Source of the DNA: a virus
Virus record (IMG/VR): IMGVR_UViG_3300046425_000042
Span: 1-24,880 of that record
Length of the DNA stretch: 24,880 nt
Strand: one strand, 5' to 3'
The notes beneath the pieces were generated by a model. It searched no databases and was not told where the DNA came from. It saw only the letters and a list, made by a program, of their open reading frames with translations. Shown here piece by piece: positions 2,384-13,709 of this stretch. How positions within the stretch are numbered: the stretch's first letter is position 1; each line of letters starts with the position of its first letter. A program made the translations under genes and the position numbers.

Positions 2384-2515
2384 TTAGTTTACTTTTTCCA
2401 TTTGCCTAGTCATCATTCCACCTATTAAATACAATGGTATAACGGTTGGCAGAATTATAAGCATAGATATAATACTTACATGACCTATAGCTTTTAATAC
2501 TGCTTCTTTAACCAT
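2384..2515 (-). CDS. 43-residue single-pass membrane peptide
   Basis: A minus-strand ORF starting at the ATG on 2515-2513, with a good ribosome site (AAGGA, 8 bases upstream of the ATG). Residues about 12-33 (HVSIISMLIILPTVIPLYLIG) form one membrane helix; the N-terminus carries basic residues and the C-terminus is polar. From memory, a peptide of this type (...GHV..ISML...PT.IP.YLIG) recurs in cyanobacterial phages, without a known role. Its start codon shares the CATG with the divergent gene at 2514. A longer upstream start at 2596 exists but would lie entirely inside the neighbour, and the Shine-Dalgarno favours 2515. It is convergent with the gene ending at 2376, only 7 bases apart. Confidence 0.6.
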   Translation of the reverse strand: MVKEAVLKAIGHVSIISMLIILPTVIPLYLIGGMMTRQMEKVN

Positions 2516-2750
2516 GAGAAAAATCCTTGACGCTTTAACTATCCTATCTACTATTCTTGTTTTGGGAATACTAGGCGGTGGTTTTTTTACATACAAGTAT
2601 GTTCAATCACCCCAGTTTCAAAAAAAGATTATGGATAAAGTACTTGGCGAGGTAAAAGGGCTATTACCAAATGTATTAGATAAAGGTTTGCCTGACATGA
2701 CAGGGCCATCAATGCCTATCCCACTTCCTAAACAAAAAATAAAATTTTAA
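2514..2750 (+). CDS. Small membrane-anchored protein of unknown function
   Basis: A 78-residue protein with an N-terminal membrane segment at residues about 7-28 (ALTILSTILVLGILGGGFFTY). An amphipathic linker follows (KKIMDKVLGEVKGLLPNVLDKGL) and then a Pro-rich C-terminus (PSMPIPLPKQK). The general plan, one helix then a Gly/Pro-rich tail, resembles small uncharacterised cyanophage proteins I recall. No Shine-Dalgarno is visible before the ATG, which overlaps the divergent start at 2515. The next gene starts at the base after its stop, so the two are probably co-translated. It might be a virion or lysis-associated membrane protein; nothing in the sequence decides. Confidence 0.7.
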   Translation: MRKILDALTILSTILVLGILGGGFFTYKYVQSPQFQKKIMDKVLGEVKGLLPNVLDKGLPDMTGPSMPIPLPKQKIKF

Positions 2751-3392
2751 TTGGAAATACCTGAAATACATATACCTGATGTTCACATCCCATATACCTA
2801 TGTGCCTGACTATAACCATTCCAATGTACAAGTAATAGGTTGCACTTACTACCACAGAGATACAAAAAATACAGGCAATAGAAATTTATTAATAGAAGAT
2901 CCTAATGGTGTGGTTAGTAATTGTCCGTACCCTAGTTATAACCCATTAAATTATGTACCAGATCAATTAATAATTAAAGAAGAGATGCCTAATCTTGCTA
3001 ATGAAAGTGAGATGCCAACAAGCGAAACACCACAACCTGAGATACCTAAAGACAAAAAAAAAGAAACTGAATACGAACCTTGTCCTCCTAGAAATGCACC
3101 ATATAGAAAAGGAGATTTTAAAAACGAGCTTCGTATTGAAAGACTGTTAGACTATGAAAGAGACGTATCAGATGGTTCTTGTAATGCGGTCTGGGAAAAA
3201 GTACCTTTCATCGACCAATACATCCCAACGGCTAGCGTGGTTGTCTCTACTATTTTTATCGCTAGTGTGGCTGCGACTACACCTATTATTATCCAGCTTA
3301 TAAAACCTTTGATCAAGCAACTTATAAAGAAGGTTACTTCTCGAAAGTCAAAGAATGAGAGTGAGGAATTACCTGACCGGGAGGAACAGTAA
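2751..3392 (+). CDS. Pro-rich protein with C-terminal membrane segment, unknown function
   Basis: A 213-residue protein starting at a TTG directly after the TAA of the previous gene. It opens with an alternating Ile/Pro/His pattern (EIPEIHIPDVHIPYTYVP). A conserved-looking middle follows (CTYYHRDTKNTGNRNLLIEDPNGVV), then a charged Pro/Glu/Lys linker, and a Cys-containing module (CPPRNAPYRKGDFKNELRIER). It ends in a long hydrophobic stretch at residues about 160-195 with a basic tail. From memory this plan belongs to a family of uncharacterised proteins in marine Synechococcus/Prochlorococcus phages. The C-terminal anchor suggests membrane localisation. Its 3' end overlaps the convergent gene by 59 bases. 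Confidence 0.75.
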   Translation: MEIPEIHIPDVHIPYTYVPDYNHSNVQVIGCTYYHRDTKNTGNRNLLIEDPNGVVSNCPYPSYNPLNYVPDQLIIKEEMPNLANESEMPTSETPQPEIPKDKKKETEYEPCPPRNAPYRKGDFKNELRIERLLDYERDVSDGSCNAVWEKVPFIDQYIPTASVVVSTIFIASVAATTPIIIQLIKPLIKQLIKKVTSRKSKNESEELPDREEQ

Positions 3393-4053
3393 CGCTAATG
3401 CCGTCACATATAGATGCAAACTTGCCTGTAAAAACTACACCTAGTTTTGCCTGTTCACCACATACCTTGAGCCTAAAAAGGGCAAGCTCTAATTTTCCTT
3501 TTTCATATAATAACTTTTGATTTTTTATATTTACCTCTGTTGCCTGATGGCATAGTGCAGGTGCTTTGCCTAGCGGAATACTAAATTGTGCTGATATACC
3601 GTAGTTTAAATTGTAGTTATCCTTTTCAAACCTTGGTGTTTCTTGAACGTACTTAATCGCACCAGTATCTTCATCGTATATATTTTGTCTGGTAACAGTT
3701 TCTTTAGGACGATTAAATGACCATGCATCAGTTACATAGGGAGTAATGGTTAAGCTAGGAGAACTACAAACAATACCTTGACTCATCCTAAATTGTGGAG
3801 TTGAGCTAGGAGCGATCATAGTAGCGTTGTTATTAACTGTTCCCTGTGCGTTGCTAGAGGGGCTTGCAACGGTTGTATTAGCTAAAACTTTACTTGGACA
3901 TAACAATAATAAAATTACTGCCCAAACGTAGTTTCTACGGTGGTTGTGGTTGTTGTGTTTATTGTGCGATCTATTGTAGTTATTGTGTCTAGTCCGGGAG
4001 AAATTATTGACTCGACCAAACTGAAAGGTTGACCTGCGTTTACTATTTTCCAT
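3334..4053 (-). CDS. Secreted protein of unknown function (third of a signal-peptide trio)
   Basis: The frame is open for 239 codons from ATG 4053, but the first 41 residues lie in another frame of the upstream gene and are unusually Asn/His/Arg-rich. A Sec signal core follows (VWAVILLLLCPSKVLA, cleavage before NTT). After this come a Ser/Asn-rich region, a beta-rich domain (RFEKDNYNLNYGISAQFSIPLGKAPALC) and a Lys-rich helix with cysteines (IKNQKLLYEKGKLELALFRLKVCGE...). No ATG/GTG/TTG lies just before the signal core. The true start is therefore either 4053, with a long n-region, or a rare codon; ATT overlaps the TAA of the upstream gene as TAATT. Function unknown; probably periplasmic or outer-surface. 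Confidence 0.7.
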   Translation of the reverse strand: MENSKRRSTFQFGRVNNFSRTRHNNYNRSHNKHNNHNHRRNYVWAVILLLLCPSKVLANTTVASPSSNAQGTVNNNATMIAPSSTPQFRMSQGIVCSSPSLTITPYVTDAWSFNRPKETVTRQNIYDEDTGAIKYVQETPRFEKDNYNLNYGISAQFSIPLGKAPALCHQATEVNIKNQKLLYEKGKLELALFRLKVCGEQAKLGVVFTGKFASICDGISVTVPPGQVIPHSHSLTFEK

Positions 4054-4352
4054 CTAGGCACACCTTCCAACGTAGGACTTGTATATGAAAAGTTAATCCC
4101 ATTGACTGTTTGCGTAGCTTCTGCCGTAGGAATTGCATTAATATAACCATTGACATCCGCACTCTCTATGTTCGTGCCTGAAACGCTCAGAGAGTACCCT
4201 GTACGAAACTGATGAGATACCACCTGCTCTGTTATTACACTTTGAGTTTGAGAATTTGTACTGGAAGATCCTGTTCTGAAGGTAGGTACTACTGGGTTTG
4301 CAAAAATTTTGGAAGGAAATATTATTAAAAGTAGCAGCCAAAATTTAGTCAA
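3915..4352 (-). CDS. Secreted protein of unknown function (second of the trio)
   Basis: A 145-residue protein from a TTG start at 4352-4350 that overlaps the upstream gene by 8 bases. The N-terminus MTKFWLLLLIIFPSKIFA followed by NP is a typical Sec signal with an AxA-like cleavage site. The mature part is Thr/Ser/Val-rich beta sequence, including VSHQFRTGYSLSVSGTNIES and a Thr run near the end. Its SVSGTNI element resembles SISGNNITP in the neighbouring upstream protein, suggesting related folds. No ATG is available near the signal, so TTG is the best start, with no clear Shine-Dalgarno; coupling to the upstream stop is likely. From memory, similar proteins accompany the other members of this cassette in cyanophages. 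Confidence 0.72.
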   Translation of the reverse strand: MTKFWLLLLIIFPSKIFANPVVPTFRTGSSSTNSQTQSVITEQVVSHQFRTGYSLSVSGTNIESADVNGYINAIPTAEATQTVNGINFSYTSPTLEGVPRWKIVNAGQPFSLVESIISPGLDTITTIDRTINTTTTTTVETTFGQ

Positions 4353-4866
4353 TGGTAATGGTTACGGTAGTTGATCCTATGCAACTAGAGCCTGATCCAA
4401 ATGCACCACTACAAGTATGAACACCTGACGATAAAGAAGTCATAGCACCTGATCCTAAAGTACCTCCACTACCTATTGTTGTTTGTCCTGATAGATGAGG
4501 TAATGCAGCTATGCCTGATGACGGTGTAATTGCACTTGGAGTCGCATCACCCATATTTATAGCTTCCGTTAGCGAAAACGCTGACCCTGCTGTAGTGACT
4601 GATTTATCAGTTTGTATAAGAGCCGGAACACCTGCGGTTAAACTGCCTATATTTAAACCACCTATTTGTTGTGCCGTAGTAGATCCACCACTAGTAACTG
4701 AAGGAGTTATGTTGTTACCTGATATTGAATATGTAGTACCTAATTTATTCGTGACAGAGTACGGCATGTCTACACTTATTTGTGCAGATGTCGTAAATTT
4801 TTGAGTGATGTCTGCTAGTGCTACAGAAGGGCTAAACAATAGCAGTAGTGCAAATAGTTTTTTCAT
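4345..4866 (-). CDS. Secreted Ser/Thr/Gly-rich protein of unknown function (first of the trio)
   Basis: A 173-residue protein starting at ATG 4866, in an ATGA overlap with the stop of the upstream gene. MKKLFALLLLFSPSVALA followed by DI is a textbook signal peptide. The mature protein is Ser/Thr/Gly-rich and beta-prone, with SISGNNITPSVTSGG and a C-terminal pair of cysteines (VHTCSGAFGSGSSC) that could form a disulfide after export. This fits an extracytoplasmic or surface-displayed role. It is the first of three consecutive genes with the same signal-peptide architecture (hydrophobic core, then PS, then A at the cleavage site), which points to a shared system. Function not known. Confidence 0.75.
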   Translation of the reverse strand: MKKLFALLLLFSPSVALADITQKFTTSAQISVDMPYSVTNKLGTTYSISGNNITPSVTSGGSTTAQQIGGLNIGSLTAGVPALIQTDKSVTTAGSAFSLTEAINMGDATPSAITPSSGIAALPHLSGQTTIGSGGTLGSGAMTSLSSGVHTCSGAFGSGSSCIGSTTVTITID

Positions 4867-5261
4867 TTTTTTGGTTTGGGATCTACTATTTCCGCATTTT
4901 CAATACGAAGCGGAGTCTCAATTCTAATCGTTTGGTAATTACCAGACTGTGATGCTAGTAACGCTTCTACTTCCTTTTTGTTTAATGGTTTTTCATCTGG
5001 TTTAAATGTACCGTCACCTCTTTTCTTAGCACCTTCCAAACCAAAACTGGCTAATGCTCCTGTCAGCAAACTTGCAGGGAAAGTTATATCTTTGGGTTCG
5101 TTACTGTAACCGGGTAAAGATATGTAGTTAAGGGATACTATAAAACCACTCCAAGCAACAACACTAAGTCTTACGATTACAGATATGAAAGCTAACTGTT
5201 CTTCTTTATCAGTAATGTTTTCTTTGAGTTTTTGTAAAACTCCCTTTTTTTCTTCTGTCAT
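4863..5261 (-). CDS. Small membrane protein, possibly holin-like
   Basis: A 132-residue protein with a charged N-terminus (TEEKKGVLQKLKENITDKEEQ). A membrane segment lies at residues about 24-47 (AFISVIVRLSVVAWSGFIVSLNY) and a second weaker hydrophobic stretch at about 59-75 (ITFPASLLTGALASFGL). The tail is soluble (KKEVEALLASQSGNYQTIRIETP). Two hydrophobic segments and charged ends would suit a holin or a small membrane regulator, but no defining motif exists. From memory, very similar proteins occur in marine cyanophages as hypothetical genes. It heads the minus-strand cassette 5261-3334 and is divergent from the gene at 5308. Confidence 0.72.
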   Translation of the reverse strand: MTEEKKGVLQKLKENITDKEEQLAFISVIVRLSVVAWSGFIVSLNYISLPGYSNEPKDITFPASLLTGALASFGLEGAKKRGDGTFKPDEKPLNKKEVEALLASQSGNYQTIRIETPLRIENAEIVDPKPKK

Positions 5262-5307
5262 AACTAGTTTTATTAGTCATACTATACATAATTACCTATT
5301 TACGCAA

Positions 5308-5469
5308 ATGACAGAGGTACAAGCAATGTTGATAGGAGCAGCAGCTACTGCTTTTGTTATGGTTTTATCTAACATGAGTAACCGTAGAGAGAAAACTATT
5401 ATTGATATCTACACTAGATTAAACAAGTTATCGCAAGCGGTTAGCAGAATAGAAGGCAAGATACAATAA
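5308..5469 (+). CDS. 53-residue membrane protein of unknown function
   Basis: I chose the ATG at 5308. The longer frame back to 5185 runs through the divergent gene and gives a Cys/Ser/Phe-rich sequence unlike a real protein. The product MTEVQAMLIGAAATAFVMVL... has an N-terminal membrane helix (residues about 6-22). A basic segment (NRREKTIIDIYTR) and a short heptad-like helix (LNKLSQAVSRIEGKI) follow, a plan shared with small holin or Rz-like and phage membrane peptides. It is divergent from 5261, with a 46-base AT-rich gap, and heads a rightward group of small genes ending at 6020. Confidence 0.65.
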   Translation: MTEVQAMLIGAAATAFVMVLSNMSNRREKTIIDIYTRLNKLSQAVSRIEGKIQ

Positions 5470-5500
5470 CGTGTGCTATGTTTGGAAAAACAAACAAACT

Positions 5501-5668
5501 ATGTACAAGATACTAAAACCTATTCTTGTAAGGTTCTTAACAACTACTGCGGTAAAGCGGTTAATAATAGATATTTTGCGAGAAACAATTTGCAAGCAAA
5601 CAACAAACACATTGGACGATAAAGCAGTTGATATGTTGGAGCAGCAATTATTTCCTAAATTAAACTAA
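5501..5668 (+). CDS. 55-residue protein of unknown function
   Basis: The ATG at 5501 gives MYKILKPILVRFLTTTAVKRL..., an amphipathic or basic N-terminal helix followed by a soluble tail ending LEQQLFPKLN. A GTG at 5471 would add ten residues (CYVWKNKQT-type) that look unlike a natural N-terminus, so 5501 is preferred. Neither start has a strong ribosome site. The stop overlaps the ATG of the next gene (TAATG), indicating translational coupling. Family known to me only as an uncharacterised cyanophage protein. Confidence 0.6.
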   Translation: MYKILKPILVRFLTTTAVKRLIIDILRETICKQTTNTLDDKAVDMLEQQLFPKLN

Positions 5669-5943
5669 TGGCTAAAGAAAAATTTCTAAACATTGAAATT
5701 GATGAGCCACCGATAGAATTAGAATTGTCGGTTGAAATGAGAATTAGAGAAGTTTTAGCTAGTGATGATTACGATGGTGTAAAAAGATATTGCACACACT
5801 TGATTAGACATCAAATGAAAAATGATGTATTTATGGCAGGGTTATTAGGAAGATTAGTAGAACTAGAAGCAATTCTTGCAAAAAAAGATTTATCAGAAGA
5901 GCGTAAAACTATGGACAGAATAAAAAAATTCTTTCATAATTAA
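5668..5943 (+). CDS. Small charged soluble protein, unknown function
   Basis: A 91-residue, largely helical and charged protein (MAKEKFLNIEIDEPPIELELSVEMRIREVL...). It contains a conserved-looking block with CTHLIRHQMKNDVFMAGLLGRLVELEAIL and a basic C-terminus (RIKKFFHN). No signal peptide or membrane segment. It is coupled to the previous gene by a one-base overlap and followed 17 bases later by a 19-residue ORF with a strong ribosome site. It may be a small regulatory or virion-associated protein, but I do not recognise a domain. Confidence 0.65.
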   Translation: MAKEKFLNIEIDEPPIELELSVEMRIREVLASDDYDGVKRYCTHLIRHQMKNDVFMAGLLGRLVELEAILAKKDLSEERKTMDRIKKFFHN

Positions 5944-6061: not shown

Positions 6062-6104
6062 ATACCTCAAAGTAATAGGTGGTCTAGTTACTTTGGGGTA
6101 TTTT
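6062..6104. terminator. Bidirectional terminator between convergent operons
   Basis: Arms ATACCTCAAAGTAA (6062-6075) and TTACTTTGGGGTAT (6088-6101) form a 14-bp stem with one G-U pair, followed on the plus strand by TTTT. It lies between the rightward group ending at 6020 and the leftward operon ending at 6103, where a shared terminator is expected. The minus strand lacks a long T-tract, so leftward termination is less certain. Confidence 0.65.
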
Positions 6105-6402
6105 AAAATGGAAACTGATCTAGGTTGTCATTACCTTTGTGTGATGGATCTCCCTTTTGCTTTGGTGGTTGATAATTAGATTGTTTATTTACATCAAATA
6201 CAGATACCATAACTGAAGTTGAGTTTGGGTTTTTAAAATCTGGTATACCTGCTAAGTTAACCCATCGGTCAAGAATAATAAATTCTCCTCCGTCATCATT
6301 TTGCATGACAACTCCAATGTTTTGCCAGTTAGCTTTTCGATTCCCTTCTTTGTCGGTATATTCCCTCGTCTTTACTGCTAGATCTTTCACTTTTTGTGCC
6401 AT
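6103..6402 (-). CDS. SSB-like single-stranded DNA-binding protein
   Basis: A 99-residue protein. The N-terminal part (AQKVKDLAVKTREYTDKEGNRKANWQNIGVVM) has the strand and turn pattern of small OB-fold phage SSB-like proteins. The C-terminus is a disordered Gln/Lys/Pro linker ending in acidic DNLDQFPF. An acidic tail ending in Pro-Phe is the hallmark by which SSBs bind partner proteins (DDDIPF in E. coli SSB). The start at 6402 has an AAAGGAG site seven bases upstream although it lies inside the RusA gene. It is the last gene of the recombination and replication operon, consistent with coating ssDNA for RecT, the nuclease and the loader. The family call is by tail and size, not by a full OB motif. 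Confidence 0.7.
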   Translation of the reverse strand: MAQKVKDLAVKTREYTDKEGNRKANWQNIGVVMQNDDGGEFIILDRWVNLAGIPDFKNPNSTSVMVSVFDVNKQSNYQPPKQKGDPSHKGNDNLDQFPF

Positions 6403-6769
6403 AAGGTGTCTCCTTTAGTATGCGTATTTTGACAAAACCACCAAGGTAATCTTGATCCATTGTTGAGATAACAGTATTAAATCGTTTGTCGTTAATGCGT
6501 AGTGCATCAGACAGGCCATCAATACCTGACTTCATTCTAGCAACTAGGTTGTCTCTGTCATAACTTCTTCTGTCTGGTGGTATAAACGTCATTTCTAAAA
6601 CTAAAATTTCTGGTAAATCATTGTATTTAGGATATTTTTTTAGTTGTTCTTTGGTGACGCTGAGACAGGCTTGCCTGTATTGTTTCTTTGCCCTAGCTAA
6701 CTTAGCCCAATGCAACCTAGCGTTAGGACTAAGGTCACTTGGCGGCCAACCTAAAACAACTTCAATCAT
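6329..6769 (-). CDS. rusA: RusA-like Holliday junction resolvase
   Basis: A 146-residue enzyme expected to cut four-way junctions and resolve branched replication or recombination intermediates before packaging. Residues 9-18 (PPSDLSPNAR) match the N-terminal RusA motif. The acidic core is present as Y-D71-R-D73-N, D84-G-L and N-D94, matching the catalytic Asp triad layout of RusA. Start ATG 6769 has GGAG seven bases upstream and overlaps the preceding gene by 8 bases. The last ~25 residues (Ser/Lys/Arg-rich) overlap the SSB-like gene by 74 bases in another frame and lie beyond the usual RusA fold; they look like a dispensable tail. Confidence 0.9.
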   Translation of the reverse strand: MIEVVLGWPPSDLSPNARLHWAKLARAKKQYRQACLSVTKEQLKKYPKYNDLPEILVLEMTFIPPDRRSYDRDNLVARMKSGIDGLSDALRINDKRFNTVISTMDQDYLGGFVKIRILKETPYGTKSERSSSKDEGIYRQRRESKS

Positions 6770-6944
6770 ATGAAATCTCCCAAACTATAGGTGCTTTGCG
6801 ACCCATAAAATTTGTTGCCATTTTAAATTTTTCAAGATCAACTACCTTTTTGTCACCACCCTCACCAGAACCAATCCAACAACAACCTGCTGTAATTACT
6901 TCGTTAAGGTCATAGTATTCGTCCATGCTACAAATAATTTTCAT
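6762..6944 (-). CDS. 60-residue protein of unknown function
   Basis: The start is placed at ATG 6944, not 6959. The 6944 ATG overlaps the stop of the preceding 28-residue ORF (ATGA) and has GGAGC eight bases upstream. The product begins MKIICSMDEYYDLNEVITAGCCWIGSG and ends KAPIVWEISYD. It has three cysteines, no membrane segment and no domain I recognise. It sits between the helicase-loader and resolvase genes, so an accessory replication role is possible by context only. Confidence 0.6.
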   Translation of the reverse strand: MKIICSMDEYYDLNEVITAGCCWIGSGEGGDKKVVDLEKFKMATNFMGRKAPIVWEISYD

Positions 6945-7027
6945 TGTGCTTTGCTCCATAGTTTAATTAATAATTCTAGTTCTTTAATGCGAACCTTTGC
7001 TGCTGCTATCTTTTGTTGACTTGTCAT
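6941..7027 (-). CDS. 28-residue coiled helix peptide linking loader and downstream gene
   Basis: ATG 7027 overlaps the loader stop as ATGA, and its own TGA (6943-6941) overlaps the next ATG as ATGA. An AGGAG lies about six bases upstream. The product MTSQQKIAAAKVRIKELELL... is a single basic amphipathic helix (Ala/Lys/Leu heptads) of 28 residues. Precise stop-start overlap at both ends and a good ribosome site are strong evidence that it is translated. It could be a real micro-protein or serve only to carry ribosomes to the next gene. Confidence 0.6.
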   Translation of the reverse strand: MTSQQKIAAAKVRIKELELLIKLWSKAQ

Positions 7028-7800
7028 AAATTTCTCCTGTAAGATTCCCAATCAAAACCTATCACCTTACCTCCGTTCTCACGCAACCTATCGGTTACAC
7101 GTTCACCAAGATAATCTGATAGCTGTTCTTTTGGTATGTTCGATAATAAAATAGATGGCTTTCTATTTTCATAGCGTGTGTTTAGTACATCAAACAATAC
7201 TTGTTTCTCAAACTCTGACCCAAACTGTACCCCCACCTCATCCAGTACAAGTAAATCAGGTGATGCAAATACATTTACTACCTGACTTTCTGTTTCTTCT
7301 TTTGTATGCCAACTATCTTTTACCCTTCTAATTAGACGTTGCACGGTGACAAATAATGCTGACCGTTGTTGTTGCATGATGCTCAACGCAATGCCGATAG
7401 CAAGATGAGTTTTTCCAGTACCCACTTTGCCTACGAAGATTGCACTTCGTCCTTCTCTTAAAACTAAATCAAAATTTTCTGCATACTCTGTTGCAAATGC
7501 TAATGCCTTTTGTTGACCACTAGTCTTTGCCACATAACTTTCCAATGTCCGATCTTTAAATCGTTCTGGAATTGCTGCACCATTTATTTTTGCTTTCCAT
7601 TTACTTGCAATACGTTCTTCTTTTAACTTTCGGTCTGCTGCCAATTGTTCCTTTGCTTCCTTATCCCTTTGAATCATCATGCATTTAGGACACGCAGTCC
7701 AATGCTCACCAATAAAGTTTGTTGAAGTATATGCACCATGTTCTGGACAATTGCGTTCCTCTGTTGGCCTTTCTTGGTTTAAGACTTTTTGTAAACTCAT
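7024..7800 (-). CDS. DnaC-like helicase loader (AAA+ ATPase)
   Basis: A 258-residue protein of the DnaC/IstB family, expected to load the host replicative helicase at the phage origin. It has an N-terminal zinc site (C18-x2-H21 and C37-x2-C40) and a charged helical linker. Walker A is at 124-131 (GKVGTGKT) and Walker B at 183-190 (LLVLDEVG). A sensor-1 segment (SILLSN, ~216-221) and an arginine-bearing box (LGERVTDRLRE, ~231-241) follow. Its length is normal for the family. It overlaps the upstream DUF1376 gene by four bases (ATGA), the usual initiator-loader pairing as in lambda O-P. No polymerase or helicase is encoded here, implying use of host enzymes. Confidence 0.88.
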   Translation of the reverse strand: MSLQKVLNQERPTEERNCPEHGAYTSTNFIGEHWTACPKCMMIQRDKEAKEQLAADRKLKEERIASKWKAKINGAAIPERFKDRTLESYVAKTSGQQKALAFATEYAENFDLVLREGRSAIFVGKVGTGKTHLAIGIALSIMQQQRSALFVTVQRLIRRVKDSWHTKEETESQVVNVFASPDLLVLDEVGVQFGSEFEKQVLFDVLNTRYENRKPSILLSNIPKEQLSDYLGERVTDRLRENGGKVIGFDWESYRRNL

Positions 7801-8453
7801 ATCTCTTGCTCCCCCTCACCATAGCTAGTAGTAGCAAAAGATTTTTGTTTATCTACCACCCAATCGCTTTTAAAACTTTGCCATCCTCTTGCTTGGCACA
7901 TAACCAATGCATCCTCCAAACTTATAGAAGTTTTCTTTACTTCATTCTTTATACCTTTTAAAGCAGTTTCTGTTAATGGTGCTTTCTTGTTTTTTCTATG
8001 AACTAAGAAATCATCCCATGTTTTTTTACTTACATTACGAGGACGCTTTAGCGTCTTATTATTATATGTTTCTTGTTTATTGTTTATTGTTTCTTGTTTC
8101 TTGTTTGGTTGAACCACTGTTGAACTAGCGTTAGACCTAGCAAGAGCAGATGCTTTACCTGCTCTAATTGCTGACTGTATCTTGCTTTGATACTTTTCTA
8201 TCTCTTCATCAGCCCTTGGATTAATCCATCCTTTGCCAACTTCTAATTTAAAAAACTCTTCCAAAACAATTCTTACTTCTGGCACATTATCCTTCATGTT
8301 AATCTTCCGTGCAACAAGGCTTACATCCTCGTTTAACGTCCGTTCATGTAGATAGTAGAGGTCTAGCAATCTTCGGTATGCTAGATCCTCCATATCAGAT
8401 AAGTGTTTAGTGTGGCTTATGTAATCGCCAATGTTAAAGGAATAAAAATGCAT
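7797..8453 (-). CDS. DUF1376-type replication initiator-like protein
   Basis: A 218-residue protein. Residues 1-90 carry the DUF1376 pattern (FYSFNIGDYISHTKHLSDMEDLAYRRLLDLYY...), a winged-helix-like domain found in phage replication proteins next to helicase loaders. A linker at 116-133 consists of seven-residue repeats (NKKQETI, NNKQETY). The C-terminal part (SKKTWDDFLVHRKNKKAPLT...GWQSFKSDW) resembles the DnaD/DnaT-like helicase-interaction end of such proteins. It overlaps RecT upstream by one base and the loader downstream by four. Origin binding is inferred from family and context. The linker's DNA forms a heptamer array described separately. Confidence 0.82.
   Translation of the reverse strand: MHFYSFNIGDYISHTKHLSDMEDLAYRRLLDLYYLHERTLNEDVSLVARKINMKDNVPEVRIVLEEFFKLEVGKGWINPRADEEIEKYQSKIQSAIRAGKASALARSNASSTVVQPNKKQETINNKQETYNNKTLKRPRNVSKKTWDDFLVHRKNKKAPLTETALKGIKNEVKKTSISLEDALVMCQARGWQSFKSDWVVDKQKSFATTSYGEGEQEI
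8042..8109. repeat. Tandem heptamer array plus inverted repeat: candidate replication origin
   Basis: Read on the plus strand, six contiguous 7-mers run from 8068 to 8109: GTTTCTT, GTTTATT, GTTTATT, GTTTCTT, GTTTCTT, GTTTGGT. They are preceded by AT-only sequence and by a perfect GACGC-TTTA-GCGTC inverted repeat at 8042-8055. The array lies in the linker of the initiator-like gene, as lambda's ori lies inside O. It also encodes a 7-residue repeat, so protein-level repetition is the alternative explanation. Confidence 0.45.
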
Positions 8454-9232
8454 TATTCCTCTTTGCGGTAGTTGTTTATTACGTTATCCGCTGCCTGATC
8501 TACCTCTTCTTGTTCCATACCCATTGCTTCTTTTAATCTAGACAATGGTTGAGTTTGTTTTTCTGGTGTCACGTTTACTGGTTCTTTGTAATTAGTTTCA
8601 TCATCCATCTTTAAAACAGTACTCAATGCATCGCTTTTTGGTAATAGTTTTGCCATGCGTTTTAGGATTGTCTTCTTAGCCATTTGGTCATACCATGCGT
8701 TCCAAACATTTTGACTCTTTGCTACCCTGCGGCAATCCTCGATGGATTTCATATCCATAATTTCTATGTACTCACCGTCATTTACAGTTTTGACATAACA
8801 CCATACTGCAAGACGTTCACCTCTGTCTCCAGATAATAACGGCATATGTTTTACATGAGCATTGCTACCTTTTTCATATTCAAAGCAATCATTTGTGTAT
8901 GCAACATCAACAGAAATAGTTTTAATTAATCCGCTGTTATGCATTAGCTTTATAATTCCATCGACCATAGGCAAATAATTAACTTGACTTTTATATGGGA
9001 CTGCTGCTGCTTCTCTACCATCTAATAACAAACCATCTTGTGCTGCTTTCATAAAGGTTTGCATTAAACTGTTTCTATCTAAATCAAGTAACTTTGGATT
9101 TTTATTCAAAGCTAATTTTGCCACACTAATAAATTTGTTTACATCAATGTGCGGTGGCAATGCTTCATTGAATTTGTCTGCCATTCTCTCAAGTGTAGAT
9201 TGAACAGATACGAGTGGTGATACTGAGGTCAT
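8453..9232 (-). CDS. recT: RecT-family single-strand annealing protein
   Basis: A 259-residue recombinase that anneals complementary ssDNA, normally working with a 5'-3' exonuclease. Recognisable RecT features include the N-terminal LPPHIDVNKFISVAKLALNKNPKL block and LMQTFMKAAQDGLLLDGREAA. Also present are VNYLPMVDGIIKLMHNSGLI and, near residue 190, NAWYDQMAKKTILKRMAKLLP. The C-terminus is acidic and probably disordered. Length is typical. The start has GGAG about seven bases upstream. It follows the YqaJ gene by two bases, the usual pairing, and is followed by the initiator-like gene with a one-base overlap. Confidence 0.93.
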   Translation of the reverse strand: MTSVSPLVSVQSTLERMADKFNEALPPHIDVNKFISVAKLALNKNPKLLDLDRNSLMQTFMKAAQDGLLLDGREAAAVPYKSQVNYLPMVDGIIKLMHNSGLIKTISVDVAYTNDCFEYEKGSNAHVKHMPLLSGDRGERLAVWCYVKTVNDGEYIEIMDMKSIEDCRRVAKSQNVWNAWYDQMAKKTILKRMAKLLPKSDALSTVLKMDDETNYKEPVNVTPEKQTQPLSRLKEAMGMEQEEVDQAADNVINNYRKEE

Positions 9233-9234
9233 TG

Positions 9235-10182
9235 TTAAACTCCTTTTGGTTGGTTGAATTTGAATTGGCGAAATGATCTGCGTGAGTTGATGTATGTACC
9301 CACCATTTCTTGAGTAATGTATTTACCCTGACTACCCTTGGTCATACCGCAATTGATAGTTCCATACTTAGAAATTATCTTGGATGCATTCTGACTTTTT
9401 TCTAAAATTTGTGCTTTTATTGATTCTTTTTGTTTTCCTAATGAAACGTATTCTCTATTAACTGAATTGTAATCATCAATTAATGTGTCTACGTCTTCAT
9501 CTGCTGCAAGAGTTATCCCTGCTTCAGCTTGATTGTATAAATTTTTAATCAAGTAATTTGAATCTCGTTCATAGTCAATGTCAGGTGGTGTGCCTGTTTT
9601 AACTCTTTCCCAAAACTCTTTTACCTTTGCTTCTAATTGTTCTCCTACTTCATGGAATCTTTCTCTTTTACATATTTTCATTTCATTGCCACCGACTAAA
9701 GCAACAATGTATCCAGACTCTATGTTTGCAAGATGAAGCTGATGTTGAAGCTGCATTTCTATAAATGGTGGAGCAAGTATATTACCTTCAGAATCTTCAT
9801 CCCACTTGTCGTGCCAAACATAGCGATCAACATTCTTAATTTCTAGCAAAGCTTCTTGTTCACCTAAAATTTTGTAATCGAAAGAAGATCCCATGCGGGT
9901 CTCAATATTGCTTAGATAGACATCATAAGGTTTAACTTCTACACCTTTTTCTTCTGCAAAACCTTCAGCAATACTTTTTTCAAGCCTACGACCCCAAGCC
10001 ATTCTGGGGCTATCTATATTTTGGATGAGTTTTTCTTTTTTTTCGTAATAAAGATCTAAAACTGTTTTGTATGGGTTGAGATTAAACAAGCATGAAACTT
10101 CAGTAGAGGTAACATCAAGTAATCTGTTTTCTAACCAATCTTGTTTGTTGGTTTCGGTAATTTGAAATTCTTTTACGGTCAT
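9235..10182 (-). CDS. YqaJ-family (lambda Exo-like) recombination exonuclease
   Basis: A 315-residue nuclease of the PD-(D/E)xK fold, expected to resect dsDNA ends for RecT. Visible motifs are the N-terminal WLENRLLDVTSTEVSCLFNLNPY, the WGRRLE box with E68, D102 in GSSFDY, the E114-I-K116 pair in LLEIKNV, and the QLQHQLH helix (~144-150). The ~110 C-terminal residues are helical and charged (SLGKQKESIKAQILEKSQNA). Length matches the family. It lies between an HTH protein and RecT in one transcript, with a one-base overlap to the gene before it. Confidence 0.93.
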   Translation of the reverse strand: MTVKEFQITETNKQDWLENRLLDVTSTEVSCLFNLNPYKTVLDLYYEKKEKLIQNIDSPRMAWGRRLEKSIAEGFAEEKGVEVKPYDVYLSNIETRMGSSFDYKILGEQEALLEIKNVDRYVWHDKWDEDSEGNILAPPFIEMQLQHQLHLANIESGYIVALVGGNEMKICKRERFHEVGEQLEAKVKEFWERVKTGTPPDIDYERDSNYLIKNLYNQAEAGITLAADEDVDTLIDDYNSVNREYVSLGKQKESIKAQILEKSQNASKIISKYGTINCGMTKGSQGKYITQEMVGTYINSRRSFRQFKFNQPKGV

Positions 10183-10415
10183 TAAAATAGTTCTCCTTGT
10201 TTTTGGATTTTAGGTAAAGAATAAACAGCAATCTTTTTGCCGTTCTTCATTTTTTTCATTTCCATTTGGATGTCATGCCCTGCTTCCTTAAGATCATTAA
10301 TTCTGGCAGCAAGTCTGAAACAAGCAAATAGTTCTAACGCTTCGATAGCAGTTAGTGAGCCGTAGTTCTCTAGGTGGTAGAGAACTTTGGCACTTTGTGA
10401 TGTTGTCTTTGGCAT
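10182..10415 (-). CDS. Small helix-turn-helix protein
   Basis: A 77-residue protein with a winged-helix or HTH pattern: SAKVLYHLENYGSLTAIEALELFACFRLAARINDLKEAGHDIQ, then a beta wing (KKIAVYSLP). This resembles the HTH_39-type domain that often precedes phage recombination genes. It could bind DNA to regulate the operon or assist replication. It has a good ribosome site (AAAGGAG) and overlaps the stop of the preceding gene by one base (TAATG). Confidence 0.78.
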   Translation of the reverse strand: MPKTTSQSAKVLYHLENYGSLTAIEALELFACFRLAARINDLKEAGHDIQMEMKKMKNGKKIAVYSLPKIQKQGELF

Positions 10416-10678
10416 TATTTAAACTCCTTTTGGAATTTAATAAACTCGTCATCTGGAACAACATTAGACTCCCATGATGCAACTGTTTCGTAATGACCAA
10501 AGTACTTCCAAGTAGGACTATCAGTAGACTTTTCTATTTCATGTGAGCCAGAAAATTTTCTTTGTTTGATGTTATCTCTACTGAAAACTTTACGGTCTAT
10601 CTCAGATCTGACTTCATTAAGAATGTCGTAAAGAGAATACTCGTCATTGGTGTAGACGGTGATTGTATGTTTCCTCAT
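10415..10678 (-). CDS. 87-residue soluble protein of unknown function
   Basis: Begins MRKHTITVYTNDEYSLYDILNEVRSEIDRK and ends DDEFIKFQKEFK. It is mixed alpha/beta, highly charged, with two short aromatic-rich segments (TWKYFGHYETVASWE). No membrane segment or catalytic motif is visible. It starts one base after the stop of a 25-residue membrane peptide and lacks its own Shine-Dalgarno, so it is probably translated by coupling. Early phage genes of this size often modulate host functions, but nothing here shows what it does. Confidence 0.65.
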   Translation of the reverse strand: MRKHTITVYTNDEYSLYDILNEVRSEIDRKVFSRDNIKQRKFSGSHEIEKSTDSPTWKYFGHYETVASWESNVVPDDEFIKFQKEFK

Positions 10679-10679
10679 T

Positions 10680-10757
10680 TCAATAATGGTTGATAGTGTT
10701 TTTAAGAAAGATATAAATGAGTGTGACTAAACACACCCAGACTATAAATGTGGTCAT
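10680..10757 (-). CDS. 25-residue membrane peptide
   Basis: ATG 10757 overlaps the preceding TGA (ATGA). The product MTTFIVWVCLVTLIYIFLK... is almost entirely one membrane helix with a short polar end (NTINHY). Its stop is one base from the next ATG. The stop-start linkage at both ends, in an operon where this is the rule, supports translation, though the ribosome site is only moderate (GAGG about ten bases away). Possible small membrane effector; function unknown. Confidence 0.5.
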   Translation of the reverse strand: MTTFIVWVCLVTLIYIFLKNTINHY

Positions 10758-10963
10758 TGGTAAGTTACCTCTCCTTTTTCATCTAATTCCAAAGCGTAAG
10801 TAACTTCTGGATTATGTTTAATAGTATCTACCTTTTTGCCGTAGGTAACTTTGTCGGTTGTTAAGCTTTTGCGTATCATGTCTAATGCTGTTTCCTTGTT
10901 TGGAGCATCAACGTGGTAATAGTCAGCTTGACTTACAACAACTCTTACTTCGTATGAGGTCAT
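10754..10963 (-). CDS. 69-residue protein of unknown function
   Basis: MTSYEVRVVVSQADYYHVDAPNKETALDMIRKSL... has a beta-beta-alpha opening (YEVRVVVSQADYYHVDAP, then NKETALDMIRKSL) and further strands (VTYALELDEKGEVTYQ). This pattern occurs in small phage proteins that mediate protein-protein contacts. No catalytic residues stand out. It overlaps the preceding 44-residue ORF and the following 25-residue ORF by four bases each (ATGA), so it lies in a coupled chain. Confidence 0.65.
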   Translation of the reverse strand: MTSYEVRVVVSQADYYHVDAPNKETALDMIRKSLTTDKVTYGKKVDTIKHNPEVTYALELDEKGEVTYQ

Positions 10964-11094
10964 TTGTCTAATTGGTTAAGGTGGTCTAACTCGCATTCGA
11001 GTCTTAGTTCTTCATCCCACATTTCTGGAGTGTGAGCAGAATAAGGAAGGCTGGACAAATAGTCCAACCTTTTTAATTTCTGGGTAATAGTCAT
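10960..11094 (-). CDS. 44-residue acidic helical protein
   Basis: ATG 11094 overlaps the TGA of the upstream gene, and its own TGA overlaps the next ATG at 10963; both junctions are ATGA. The product starts MTITQKLKRLDYLSSLPYSAH and continues with an acidic helix (EMWDEELRLECELDHLNQLDK). It fills what would otherwise be a 127-base gap exactly, which is the main argument that it is real. Function unknown. Confidence 0.6.
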   Translation of the reverse strand: MTITQKLKRLDYLSSLPYSAHTPEMWDEELRLECELDHLNQLDK

Positions 11095-11627
11095 TTGACT
11101 ACACCTGCTGCTCTTAAATCACGATTGTGTTTGTTCATGAACTTTTGCCACATATCTCTATGACACCAAACACCTATAACCTTTTTTAGTTTTTTGGTCT
11201 TACCTCTGGAATCCCAACTGTCATAAATAGCACCATCCTTAACGCAGACAACGTGATTGTCTTGGTCAGCAATGCAAACCTCAGGCAAGTTGTCTTTATG
11301 AAAAACAGTTTTGTATGAAACGTAAATCCAATCGTATAGTTTGCGATCAGATTTTGCCATGTCGTTAAGAGTTGTGGTCATCTCTTGGCGAGTTATGCCA
11401 CCGTATGAAGTCTGATATCTTTTGTAGCCCCAAACAGGCTCATCACCATCATGTCTTTGAGCTATTGCGTCATCAGCATAATGCTTGACAAACCTGTATT
11501 CAGTATCAGTCGCTAAAGATAAAGCTCTGACTCCGCAATCACCGTGGTCTTCCTTTTTAGGATGTGGGTTGCGTGTAAAAAAGTGCAGTCCTGTTGGATG
11601 TGAACTTTTTGGAAATGAAATTGTCAT
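11091..11627 (-). CDS. Papain-fold cysteine-peptidase-like protein, first gene of early operon
   Basis: A 178-residue protein with a plausible Cys-His-Asp triad: C31 in GDCGVRALSLAT, H125 in DNHVVCVKDG, and D136 or D139 in IYDSWDSRG. The order Cys helix, then a His strand, then Asp/Asn is that of papain-like folds (C39/OTU-like peptidases, transglutaminase-like enzymes). From memory, DCGVRALS-type proteins are recurrent unannotated phage early genes. The substrate could be a host protein or a modified peptide; catalytic activity is not proven. It is the first gene after a predicted promoter and operator, with no Shine-Dalgarno and a leader of roughly 50 bases, so it would be made immediately after infection or induction. 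Confidence 0.65.
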   Translation of the reverse strand: MTISFPKSSHPTGLHFFTRNPHPKKEDHGDCGVRALSLATDTEYRFVKHYADDAIAQRHDGDEPVWGYKRYQTSYGGITRQEMTTTLNDMAKSDRKLYDWIYVSYKTVFHKDNLPEVCIADQDNHVVCVKDGAIYDSWDSRGKTKKLKKVIGVWCHRDMWQKFMNKHNRDLRAAGVVK

Positions 11628-11686
11628 TCGTTTTGTAATTAAAAAATTGTAAGTGACGAAAATGAGACAGTTACCTGCTCACAACC

Positions 11687-11715
11687 AGTGTATCACATAA
11701 TGCAACACTTGGCAA
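11687..11715 (-). promoter_or_regulatory. Early-operon promoter with operator A
   Basis: On the minus strand, TTGCCA (11715-11710), a 17-base spacer and TACACT (11692-11687) form a sigma70-type promoter pointing at the gene starting at 11627. A 19-bp near-palindrome, plus-strand TGTATC-N7-GCAACA at 11689-11707, fills the spacer and overlaps the -10. A bound repressor would block RNA polymerase. Similar 19-mers lie at 12113-12131 and 13324-13342. Confidence 0.62.
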
Positions 11716-11722
11716 ATATTAG

Positions 11723-11890
11723 TTAATCGTAGGCATCTCGTTTTTTTAAAATATATACTTCTGAATCACATTTACTACAAGTTAAATTGGTCATTACTGA
11801 ATACTTATCATAAAAAAGTTTATGCATTGATGCATCAGTATCCATATCAGTACCTGTAATCAATTCAGCACCGCACCAATAGCAATTCAT
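11723..11890 (-). CDS. 55-residue zinc-ribbon protein
   Basis: MNCYWCGAELITGTDMDTD... contains two CxxC knuckles (C3/C6 and C38/C41) typical of small zinc ribbons; the second half reads VMTNLTCSKCDSEVYIL. From memory, short proteins beginning MNCWWC with a second CxxC are common in phages. It starts in a TAATG overlap with the repressor-like gene, after a GGAAAAG stretch, so the two are probably one transcript. Possible nucleic-acid or protein-binding partner of the repressor; role unknown. Confidence 0.7.
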   Translation of the reverse strand: MNCYWCGAELITGTDMDTDASMHKLFYDKYSVMTNLTCSKCDSEVYILKKRDAYD

Positions 11891-12105
11891 TATTCTTTTC
11901 CAAAAATAAGCTCATGGGCTGAAATTTGATATCCTAAATCCCATGCTTTTTCTAATACTTTTTTCTGAATGGAGGTAGGGATTGTTCCCTGCTTTTTCCA
12001 CTTGCTAACAGAACCTGCATCCCTTCCAACCTGACGTGCCAATTCACGGACACCGCCAAATTCAGAAATTACTAGTTCGTAGGGGGTTTTAATAGTTGAT
12101 TCCAT
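11890..12105 (-). CDS. Cro/YdaS-like HTH repressor
   Basis: A 71-residue DNA-binding protein. An HTH is clear at residues about 17-45: VRELARQVGRDAGSVSKWKKQGTIPTSIQKKVLEKA, the pattern of Cro and of YdaS-type antitoxin/repressors. I place the start at ATG 12105 (MESTIKTPYELV). The ATG at 12132 lies inside the promoter and operator and adds an unlikely MLHLWQYID. The predicted -10 is 7 bases upstream of 12105, so the mRNA may be leaderless, as for lambda cI from PRM. Three 19-bp operators nearby, one over its own promoter, suggest autoregulation and control of the early operon. No dimerisation or peptidase domain is present, so it is Cro-sized, not CI-sized. Confidence 0.8.
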   Translation of the reverse strand: MESTIKTPYELVISEFGGVRELARQVGRDAGSVSKWKKQGTIPTSIQKKVLEKAWDLGYQISAHELIFGKE

Positions 12106-12111
12106 ATCTAT

Positions 12112-12140
12112 ATATTGCCATAAATGCAACATTTAATCAA
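12112..12140 (-). promoter_or_regulatory. Repressor promoter with operator B
   Basis: Minus-strand TTGATT (12140-12135), 17 bases, then CAATAT (12117-12112; AATATA one base on is an alternative). The 19-bp near-palindrome TATTGC-N7-GCAACA (plus strand, 12113-12131) fills the spacer and -10. Transcription would start almost at the ATG on 12105, giving a leaderless message. The promoter begins about 10 bases beyond the terminator of the upstream block. Confidence 0.55.
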
Positions 12141-12150
12141 GTAATTGGGC

Positions 12151-12176
12151 AAAAAAAAGAGGGTGGTTAACCCTCT
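12151..12176 (-). terminator. Rho-independent terminator of the 13264-12167 block
   Basis: On the minus strand a 7-bp perfect stem (AGAGGGT / ACCCTCT, loop 5) is followed immediately by a run of T (12158-12151 on the plus strand reads as A8). It overlaps the end of the gene stopping at 12167, whose TAA lies in the loop. It insulates the repressor promoter from upstream transcription. Confidence 0.88.
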
Positions 12177-12367
12177 AGGCAAGCTTGGCACATATCAACT
12201 GGAATTCTCATTTGATGAACGACAGTATACATACTTTCGGCAGTTTCAGATTGGCCGTTTATTTTAGAACCTAAAGCAATGCTTTTTTGGCCGTATAAAT
12301 CCCCTTTTGATATAGAGGATTTACATGAGTAGCAATTTCTTGCTTTTCTTGTTTTTTTCAATTTCAT
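12167..12367 (-). CDS. 66-residue Cys-pair (zinc-binding) protein
   Basis: Basic N-terminus (MKLKKTRKARNC), then CxxC pairs at C12/C15 and C60/C63 separated by about 44 residues, a zinc-ribbon or treble-clef-like arrangement. An AGGA lies upstream of the ATG. Its last codons are embedded in the terminator stem. It may bind nucleic acid given the basic N-terminus and zinc site. It is the last gene of the short leftward block under the 13.3 kb promoter. Confidence 0.65.
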   Translation of the reverse strand: MKLKKTRKARNCYSCKSSISKGDLYGQKSIALGSKINGQSETAESMYTVVHQMRIPVDMCQACLEG

Positions 12368-12378
12368 AATTTATTTTC

Positions 12379-12678
12379 CTAAGTAAGACTAATGCCTGTT
12401 TCTTTACTTCTTTGTTCATACTTGTCGTAATCATTGTTGTAAAGATTGTCCAATTCATCCAATGTAGATAAATAAGTTTCTACTCTTGATTTGTCTACAT
12501 CATCTTGTCCAAAGACTAATAAAGCTTCACCAATTGCTAGTAAATCTTTATGACCAAAACCTTTAGTTGTAATAATTTGCTTGAACAAGTCATAAGGACT
12601 ATTGTCTAGCCAATTTTCAGAAGCCCATTGTAGGTCTTGGATTTTGTCAAATGCTTTAACTGTTTTTGTACTGGTCAT
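12379..12678 (-). CDS. 99-residue acidic protein of unknown function
   Basis: MTSTKTVKAFDKIQDLQWASENWLDNSPYDLFKQ... is helical and acidic, with a Tyr/Asp/Asn-rich C-terminal part (DELDNLYNNDYDKYEQRSKE). No motif, signal or membrane segment. It is followed 11 bases later by the Cys-pair gene and preceded by a 52-base gap to the 177-residue gene, in the same transcript. Acidic early proteins of this size are sometimes DNA mimics or inhibitors, but that is speculation. Confidence 0.6.
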   Translation of the reverse strand: MTSTKTVKAFDKIQDLQWASENWLDNSPYDLFKQIITTKGFGHKDLLAIGEALLVFGQDDVDKSRVETYLSTLDELDNLYNNDYDKYEQRSKETGISLT

Positions 12679-12730
12679 TGTTAAATAAGGATTAGGAATA
12701 AAAGTAAATAAGGAAAAAGTGCAAAGGTCA

Positions 12731-13264
12731 TTAGTTGACCTCTGCTTTGTGAAACTCGATGCAGTTTGAGTAATGGCCGTTGACCTTGGCTATGTAAAAC
12801 TCATTGTTGATAATAACTTTGTCACCATGTGCAACTGGTCTAAGGTTGTACATTCTGTGGTTAGCCATTCTCTGTTCTTTGCTGTAGCTGTTACAAATCA
12901 TTGAACCTGCATTGATACCTACATACTTGCCATCACATAAATGTAAACTGACATTCCAGATAAGATTAGTATCGTAAATACGTTTTTCACCTGTTGGTGC
13001 ATAAACACCTCTGCGTCTTTGTGGCTTACCTGCTCTTACTTTGAAATCATTTCTCCAATCAAAAGAATCTTTGGCCGGTGTAAGTGTTTGGTAAAGTGGC
13101 TCGCATACTGCTTCGTAATCAGCAGGTGTAGGCTCACAACCTTTCATAAACTCGTAATAAAATTCTGAAGTTGTCTCTTTGTCTTCTTTGACGTATTGAG
13201 TTACGCAGTCAATCTGACGCTTAAGGAACTCTTTTCTGTCTGTAGCTGTAGTTGTTTGTGTCAT
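12731..13264 (-). CDS. 177-residue protein of unknown function
   Basis: Starts MTQTTTATDRKEFLKRQIDCVTQYVKEDK. The middle is basic (RAGKPQRRRGVYAPTGEKRIYDTN) and the rest is beta-rich, ending YIAKVNGHYSNCIEFHKAEVN. It has four cysteines and several histidines, without a motif I can name. It is the first leftward gene after the operator-C promoter and is divergent from the late operon. Its position next to the switch suggests an early or lysogeny-linked role, but this is only context. No Shine-Dalgarno is evident. Confidence 0.65.
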   Translation of the reverse strand: MTQTTTATDRKEFLKRQIDCVTQYVKEDKETTSEFYYEFMKGCEPTPADYEAVCEPLYQTLTPAKDSFDWRNDFKVRAGKPQRRRGVYAPTGEKRIYDTNLIWNVSLHLCDGKYVGINAGSMICNSYSKEQRMANHRMYNLRPVAHGDKVIINNEFYIAKVNGHYSNCIEFHKAEVN

Positions 13265-13321
13265 TTGCTGTAGTTAATTAAATTAGTTAGGGAACAAATC
13301 GGCTCGACCACCGATACTTAT

Positions 13322-13350
13322 AGTGTTGCAGTTAATGCACCATATGTCAA
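13322..13350 (-). promoter_or_regulatory. Leftward promoter with operator C
   Basis: A consensus -35 TTGACA (13350-13345, minus strand) precedes AACACT at 17 bases (13327-13322), or TATAAG further on at a poor spacing of 22. The 19-bp near-palindrome TGTTGC-N7-GCACCA (13324-13342) starts two bases after the -35, the same placement as in operators A and B. It would drive the gene starting at 13264. Confidence 0.55.
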
Positions 13351-13367
13351 GTAATTAATTTTGGATG

Positions 13368-13396
13368 TTGCGATATTCTCTTTATTTCTCTATATT
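13368..13396 (+). promoter_or_regulatory. Rightward (late operon) promoter
   Basis: TTGCGA (13368-13373), 17 bases, TATATT (13391-13396). Transcription would begin about 13403, leaving a short U-rich leader (mostly T/A) without a Shine-Dalgarno before the ATG at 13422. A TGTTGC half-site (13366-13371) overlaps the -35, so the repressor could touch it, though the second half-site is not conserved. Confidence 0.55.
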
Positions 13397-13421: not shown

Positions 13422-13709
13422 ATGGCTGTAATTACTCAAACTACTAGAGAGTATATTCCAGTTAATGAGGACGGTTACAGAATCGGGGAATTTCATCATC
13501 ACGCTAGAATTCCTGAGTACATTATCCAAGCTATCTTAGATTTAAGAGAAACTTATAATTTAGGATACGGTACTCTCTCAACCATTTTCTCATCACATAA
13601 CATAAGGAGGGAAACTATTGGAAAAATCTGCCGCTACGAATCTCGCTGTCAGACACCAGATAGATGGAAAACAATCTACAAAACTAGGAAGACCTATAGA
13701 GAAAGTTGA
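13422..13709 (+). CDS. HTH DNA-binding protein upstream of terminase
   Basis: A 95-residue protein. Residues about 20-80 read RIGEFHHHARIPEYIIQAILDLRETYNLGYGTLSTIFSSHNIRRETIGKICRY, a homeodomain-like HTH common in phage proteins preceding terminase genes. The C-terminus (QTPDRWKTIYKTRKTYRES) is basic. It may recognise the packaging site or regulate the late operon. It is the first gene after the rightward promoter, and its 3' end overlaps the small terminase by 92 bases in another frame. Confidence 0.72.
   Translation: MAVITQTTREYIPVNEDGYRIGEFHHHARIPEYIIQAILDLRETYNLGYGTLSTIFSSHNIRRETIGKICRYESRCQTPDRWKTIYKTRKTYRES

Follow-up and report, generated by a model that had tools for sequence, protein, structure and literature searches.

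A Cro-type repressor gene and three promoter-embedded operators suggest early-gene shut-off without CI in a probable cyanophage lineage

What does a small repressor gene control in a phage genome when similar near-palindromes lie at its own promoter and at two promoters nearby? The question is raised by a viral DNA of 24,880 nucleotides (IMG/VR record IMGVR_UViG_3300046425_000042, positions 1 to 24,880; this whole stretch is called the window). A preliminary description made from its letters alone proposed that three matching 19-bp operators around a Cro/YdaS-like repressor form the control switch of the phage, with autoregulation, and remarked that a lysogeny-type switch would be unusual if the phage were a marine cyanophage. 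The leftward genes, promoters and operators of the region are as follows.

6103..11627, minus strand: early operon (178-aa ORF, small ORFs, RecE-like exonuclease, RecT, primosomal protein, DnaC-like loader, RusA-like resolvase, 99-aa ORF)
11687..11715, minus strand: early promoter, TTGCCA-N17-TACACT, from the sequence
11689..11707, minus strand: operator O_early, TGTATC-ACATAAT-GCAACA, between the -35 and -10 of the early promoter; relatives keep it some 0.4-1.3 kb downstream of where the repressor gene starts
11723..11890, minus strand: 55-aa CxxC zinc-ribbon-like ORF, its start overlapping the repressor stop; homologue in marine virus AG-345-A17
11890..12105, minus strand: Cro-type repressor gene, 71 aa, ATG at 12105
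12106..12140, minus strand: repressor promoter, TTGATT (12140-12135), 17 bp, CAATAT (12117-12112), with a predicted start site
12113..12131, minus strand: operator O_rep, TATTGC-CATAAAT-GCAACA, in the repressor promoter and over its -10, from the sequence; conserved in nearly all of 50+ relatives
12150..12176, minus strand: terminator AGAGGGTTAACCACCCTCT followed by T8, z -3.25; directly upstream of the repressor promoter in relatives too
12167..13264, minus strand: third leftward block with three ORFs (177, 99 and 66 aa) of unassigned function; gene content differs among relatives
13322..13350, minus strand: third-block promoter, TTGACA-N17-AACACT; same geometry in relatives
13324..13342, minus strand: operator O_third, TGTTGC-AGTTAAT-GCACCA, in the -35/-10 spacer of the third-block promoter, from the sequence; conserved in relatives

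The three near-palindromes are read directly from the sequence where the preliminary description had placed them, and on the minus strand the -35 hexamers TTGCCA, TTGATT and TTGACA end 2, 3 and 2 bases ahead of the sites at 11689, 12113 and 13324, also as described. The claim that the sites lie at the promoters of the early operon, the repressor and the third block can be made more exact: in each of the three leftward promoters, the site occupies the 17-bp spacer that separates -35 from -10 and overlaps the -10; it is the promoter spacer itself rather than just a neighbour of the -35. Scored against the consensus TGTTGC-N7-GCAACA, the site at 11689 matches 10/12 and the sites at 12113 and 13324 match 11/12 each. 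Two 11/12 sites in the window are unusual (0.09 expected), while the 10/12 site is ordinary by count (four in the window against 1.3 expected, the three further matches lying in coding DNA at 7370, 7720 and 18824). When a site was required to score at least 10/12 and to have TTG 5-6 nt before it, the window contained three, and none of 200 dinucleotide shuffles did (no site in 182, one in 16, two in 2). In this promoter-placed form, the motif is not equally frequent in coding DNA.

In the repressor promoter, exactly 6 nt separate the -10 from the ATG in the window and in relatives, and the -35 and the spacing are also kept; in phages with a KDP-type repressor the -10 reads TACAAT and the 6-nt gap is retained. 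Because of this short distance, the repressor message is predicted to be leaderless; transcription starts in this report are predicted positions. The 55-aa ORF is likely co-transcribed with the repressor. With the third block ended by the terminator immediately upstream of the repressor promoter, the region comprises three separate leftward units.

The decisive support for the sites is conservation, as relatives carry them at the corresponding three promoters. Scanning viral contigs with the repressor yielded 56 relatives, nearly all with O_rep. Among the 41 contigs spanning the region, 30 have three promoter-operators, 3 have four or five and the rest have one or two, so the motif is present, not absent, at the related promoters. 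The sites recur next to different surrounding genes and usually in a stronger form (at the early promoter, for example, TGTTGCATTATGTGCTACA, which scores 12/12 when the right side may be CAACA or CTACA): the genes behind the promoters vary, and promoter and operator stay. DC33, zth2-2, ctEw122 and ctQRb9, with more distant repressors (44-56% identical), likewise have an operator-like site before the repressor gene. Four contigs (G020, L021, L022 and L103) keep the repressor, and a strict search found no further promoter-operator nearby. G017, a terminase relative without the repressor, was dropped as a control, as its contig may lack the region.

Other arrangements were seen among the relatives. 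G020, L021 and L022 combine a 77%-identical repressor with another promoter layout, TTGTAA-N17-TATACT, in which a TGTTG-N9-CAACA site lies over the -35. Five contigs (L034, L052, L055, L056 and L076) have additional operator-promoters before inserted genes, suggesting that each newcomer brings a repressed promoter with it. A fourth recurrent match (TGTTG...ATGGCAACA style), where the gene following the 874-aa tail gene begins, was set aside because it lies over start codons and is probably due to constraint on the coding sequence.

By profile and fold, the 71-aa protein is a member of the all-alpha Cro family of the P22/N15 type. Its helix-turn-helix (HTH) consists of residues 19-26 and 30-39, with the recognition helix AGSVSKWKKQ. 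The Pfam matches of the window protein to P22_Cro (PF14549; 1e-5, 25.3 against a cut-off of 30.2) and to YdaS_toxin (PF15943; 1e-4, 22.5 against a cut-off of 30 bits) are both below threshold, and profile matches to XPH1, Xfaso1, N15 and P22 Cro have E values of 1.5e-4 to 0.015. PF14549 was matched by 16 of 17 family members at E<=0.1, and YdaS by 14 of 17. A single-sequence structure model of modest quality (pLDDT 75) contains five helices with the HTH, and Cro structures fill the first nine places among its Foldseek matches (E 4e-3 to 0.07), headed by N15, Xfaso1 and P22 Cro. Cro-family is thus a better label than the earlier 'Cro/YdaS-like', YdaS having the lower scores. We infer that the protein binds the operators in the early promoters as a dimer. 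The Cro proteins of N15, the Xfaso-1 prophage and P22 (PDB 6on0/2hin, 3bd1 and 1rzs; PF14549) share its fold, size and HTH position, and there too a small repressor precedes early replication genes and the operators are near-palindromic. In contrast to these systems, no opposing CI/CB prophage repressor was found here, single operators at three promoters over about 1.6 kb take the place of clustered operators, the repressor forms its own unit, predicted to be leaderless, and the host is probably that of a cyanophage.

Cro recognition helices correlate with operator half-sites (Hall, LeFevre and Cordes 2005, as cited in PMC4997575). In the present lineage, the repressors fall by recognition helix into the classes RDAGS, RDPAS, KDP and a small CGSI group, and in the sequences compared the recognition helix covaries with operator bases. 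Operator position 4 is T in 52/54 distinct RD-type sites (with CGSI) versus 3/13 KDP-type sites (Fisher 7e-8), and position 3 is other than T in 10/26 RDAGS-type versus 0/24 RDPAS-type sites, both counts ignoring the relatedness of the phages. Independent pairs were also compared on supported branches: operator base and class agree in 3.3 of 4 pairs for KDP at the third site, 2.6 of 4 for KDP at the early site and 3.8 of 5 for RDAGS at the third site, and no pair goes the other way, although none of these comparisons has enough pairs to be significant by itself. TGTTG is retained at the early site in some KDP-type phages.

The classes change 18 times on the terminase tree (minimum 3) and 3 times on the repressor tree. 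The window is RDAGS, and L062 (KDP) and G002 (RDPAS), which represent two other classes, are among its closest terminase relatives at about 93% identity. Because the classes are scattered over the terminase tree, repressor alleles appear to have been exchanged repeatedly. The repressor gene and its operators lie within a few kb of each other and may travel together as a single block, so that joint transfer accounts for their matching as well as coevolution does. Lambdoid phages have swapped immunity regions and heteroimmune types, and the present phages are alike in that repressor alleles and matching operators move between backbones. Unlike the lambdoid case, there is no evidence of lysogeny here, and we infer the swapping of repressor and matching sites from metagenomic contigs only.

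To the right of the three operators, transcription turns to the other strand.

13368..13396, plus strand: rightward late promoter, TTGCGA-N17-TATATT, for terminase and virion genes, without a full operator

The TTGCGA is unchanged in KDP-type phages, for example L062 and G001. A reading of the late promoter as a half-operator (TRTTGC) was rejected: the right arm is not conserved, and TTGCGA is independent of repressor class. The first rightward gene (13422-13709, plus strand) encodes a 95-aa HTH-like protein with a counterpart in G006 at 38271-38537; it gave no family match and might be another regulator acting on the late operon.

Behind the early and third promoters, most relatives have a leader module in which a hairpin begins 5-7 nt after the -10 and is followed by a conserved A/T-rich tail (CACTTACTAATTT..AATTAAC) and then the ATG. 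In the window, its hairpins are:

11662..11682, minus strand: 5'-terminal hairpin of the early-operon leader, by folding; the stem is kept with varying sequence across relatives
13298..13315, minus strand: 5'-terminal hairpin of the third-block leader (ATCGGT...GCCGAT), by folding

At least 5 Watson-Crick pairs form in 73 of 77 distinct leaders versus 11.6% of shuffles, with the stem sequence varying freely; this holds for the set, while the window's two leaders singly fold no better than shuffles (z -1.24 and 0.01). No Shine-Dalgarno sequence is evident in these two leaders, and an Rfam search gave no match. The promoter-leader module is portable, being reused before different genes in relatives. 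Antitermination of the boxA/nut kind was considered and rejected, as the conserved tail is a poor boxA match and some leaders have no hairpin. The mRNA leader of T7 gene 10 likewise starts with a 5'-terminal stem-loop followed by an A/T-rich, enhancer-like stretch, and by this likeness the module may stabilise the message or help translation; unlike the T7 leader, the window's two leaders have no evident Shine-Dalgarno sequence, and the stem sequence is free to vary.

The products of the genes at 3337-4053, 4866-5261 and 4348-4866 match 389, 310 and 102 phage records, all of them Synechococcus, Prochlorococcus or cyanophage entries except some unnamed marine or uncultured viruses and one 'Tiamatvirus', and the best named matches of the products of 3337-4053 and 4348-4866 are the Prochlorococcus phages MED4-117 and MED4-184. 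Because these lysis-side genes match almost only cyanophages, a cyanobacterial host, probably picocyanobacteria, is likely, and the suggestion of a marine cyanophage has thus become probable. A betaproteobacterial host, suggested by DC33, was dropped on the same matches. No psbA was found. The window's capsid belongs to the type of DC33 (a Limnohabitans phage), zth2-2 and the Manatee Spring phages ctEw122 and ctQRb9, at 84-85% identity, and the window's cyanophage lysis-side genes were not found in these four; DC33 and ctEw122 have the repressor gene in divergent orientation to exo/recT. The lysis-side block (2514-5943), whose products match cyanophages almost exclusively, lies beside a capsid/terminase backbone whose closest GenBank capsid relatives are non-cyanophage podoviruses, which makes the genome a mosaic. 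A single-cell-derived marine virus contig (L226; MH327490, AG-345-A17) has the lysis-side genes in common with the window, at up to 81%, as well as the zinc-ribbon ORF of 55 aa, and no operator-promoter of this type was found in it.

Could the repressor maintain lysogeny or a plasmid-like state, that is, integrase-free persistence (for example as an episome) with the early genes held off and superinfection immunity? Operators at several promoters, autoregulation and swapped specificity groups do resemble phage immunity regions, Exo/RecT genes are present, and the genome of the related zth2-2 was obtained from a growing culture and is separate from the host chromosome (PMC11361711), so that an episomal state is conceivable in the wider family. 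Yet the searches found no integrase (PF00589) in 26 records, comprising the window and relatives of up to 43 kb, and neither a serine recombinase/resolvase (PF00239) nor a CI-like HTH_3 (PF01381) or S24 (PF00717) match at E<=0.1 in 30 records including the four named relatives. No relative of the repressor was found in 84,980 GTDB genomes by a pattern scan that sees close relatives only, and the plaques of DC33, the single isolated relative with plaque data, are clear (PMC12195039). The repressor gene is itself under the same kind of operator, and the late promoter has none. T7-like marine cyanophages show integration but no lysogeny, attempts having given no stable lysogens, and marine Prochlorococcus and Synechococcus isolates are described as lacking intact prophages (PMC8776855). 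We therefore consider a maintenance repressor unlikely. A control region with three operators, an internal repressor gene and autoregulation stands from the earlier proposal of a switch; its lysogeny-type reading finds no support in these results.

It is more improbable still that a host regulator binds the sites, or that they are simply constrained promoter sequence, with the Cro-like protein acting elsewhere. Overlap of the right arm with the -10 means that promoter constraint accounts for part of the conservation, but the conserved left arm sits outside both hexamers, arm sequence varies in step with the class of phage repressor, and the late promoter lacks a conserved right arm despite its similar -35. 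The least probable explanation, to which we give very little weight, takes the protein for the YdaS member of a toxin-antitoxin-like pair of the YdaS/YdaT kind, with the sites serving its autoregulation: against the sub-threshold YdaS_toxin match stand the better P22_Cro scores in more members, the exclusively Cro nearest structures, the lack of a visible YdaT-like partner and the presence of replication genes under the same sites.

The reading we consider probable, drawn from sequence, is that of a Cro without CI, an autoregulated shut-off of early genes that spares the late promoter. It is favoured because the sites are conserved, promoter and operator keep a fixed geometry, profile and modelled fold place the protein in the Cro family, helix and operator covary, the late promoter is free, no lysogeny genes were found and DC33 forms clear plaques. 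Counting against it are the small number of independent pairs, joint transfer as an equally good account of the matching, the KDP-type phages with TGTTG at the early site, and the four contigs in which the strict search near the repressor gave no further promoter-operator. At infection, the three leftward promoters would fire; the repressor, made from a leaderless message, would bind each site as a dimer and keep RNA polymerase off the early operon with its RecE/RecT and replication genes, the third block and its own gene. Early transcription would be damped at a self-limited level while late transcription continues. Because the allele and operator groups match and shuffle between backbones, a cell holding one phage would also be expected to repress an incoming phage of the same specificity. 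That the exchangeable repressor-operator specificities are superinfection-immunity types, perhaps supporting a non-integrated carrier state, is a tentative proposal that we think rather doubtful; if true, immunity types would occur in a host group in which no intact prophages have been found.

The T7-like marine cyanophages S-TIP37 and P-SSP7 are also short-tailed and share the habitat and the probable host group. An integrase is present in many T7-like marine cyanophages, for which no homologues of repressors were found (PMC8776855), whereas in the present lineage a repressor was found and no integrase. A repressor with mapped operators and exchangeable specificities is thus the opposite combination to that of the T7-like cyanophages. 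The natural covariation set, with four helix classes and dozens of matched operators, is ready data for the Cro recognition code. Two questions become directly testable, namely early-gene shut-off in these phages and the mutual exclusion of cyanophages by repressor-based immunity.
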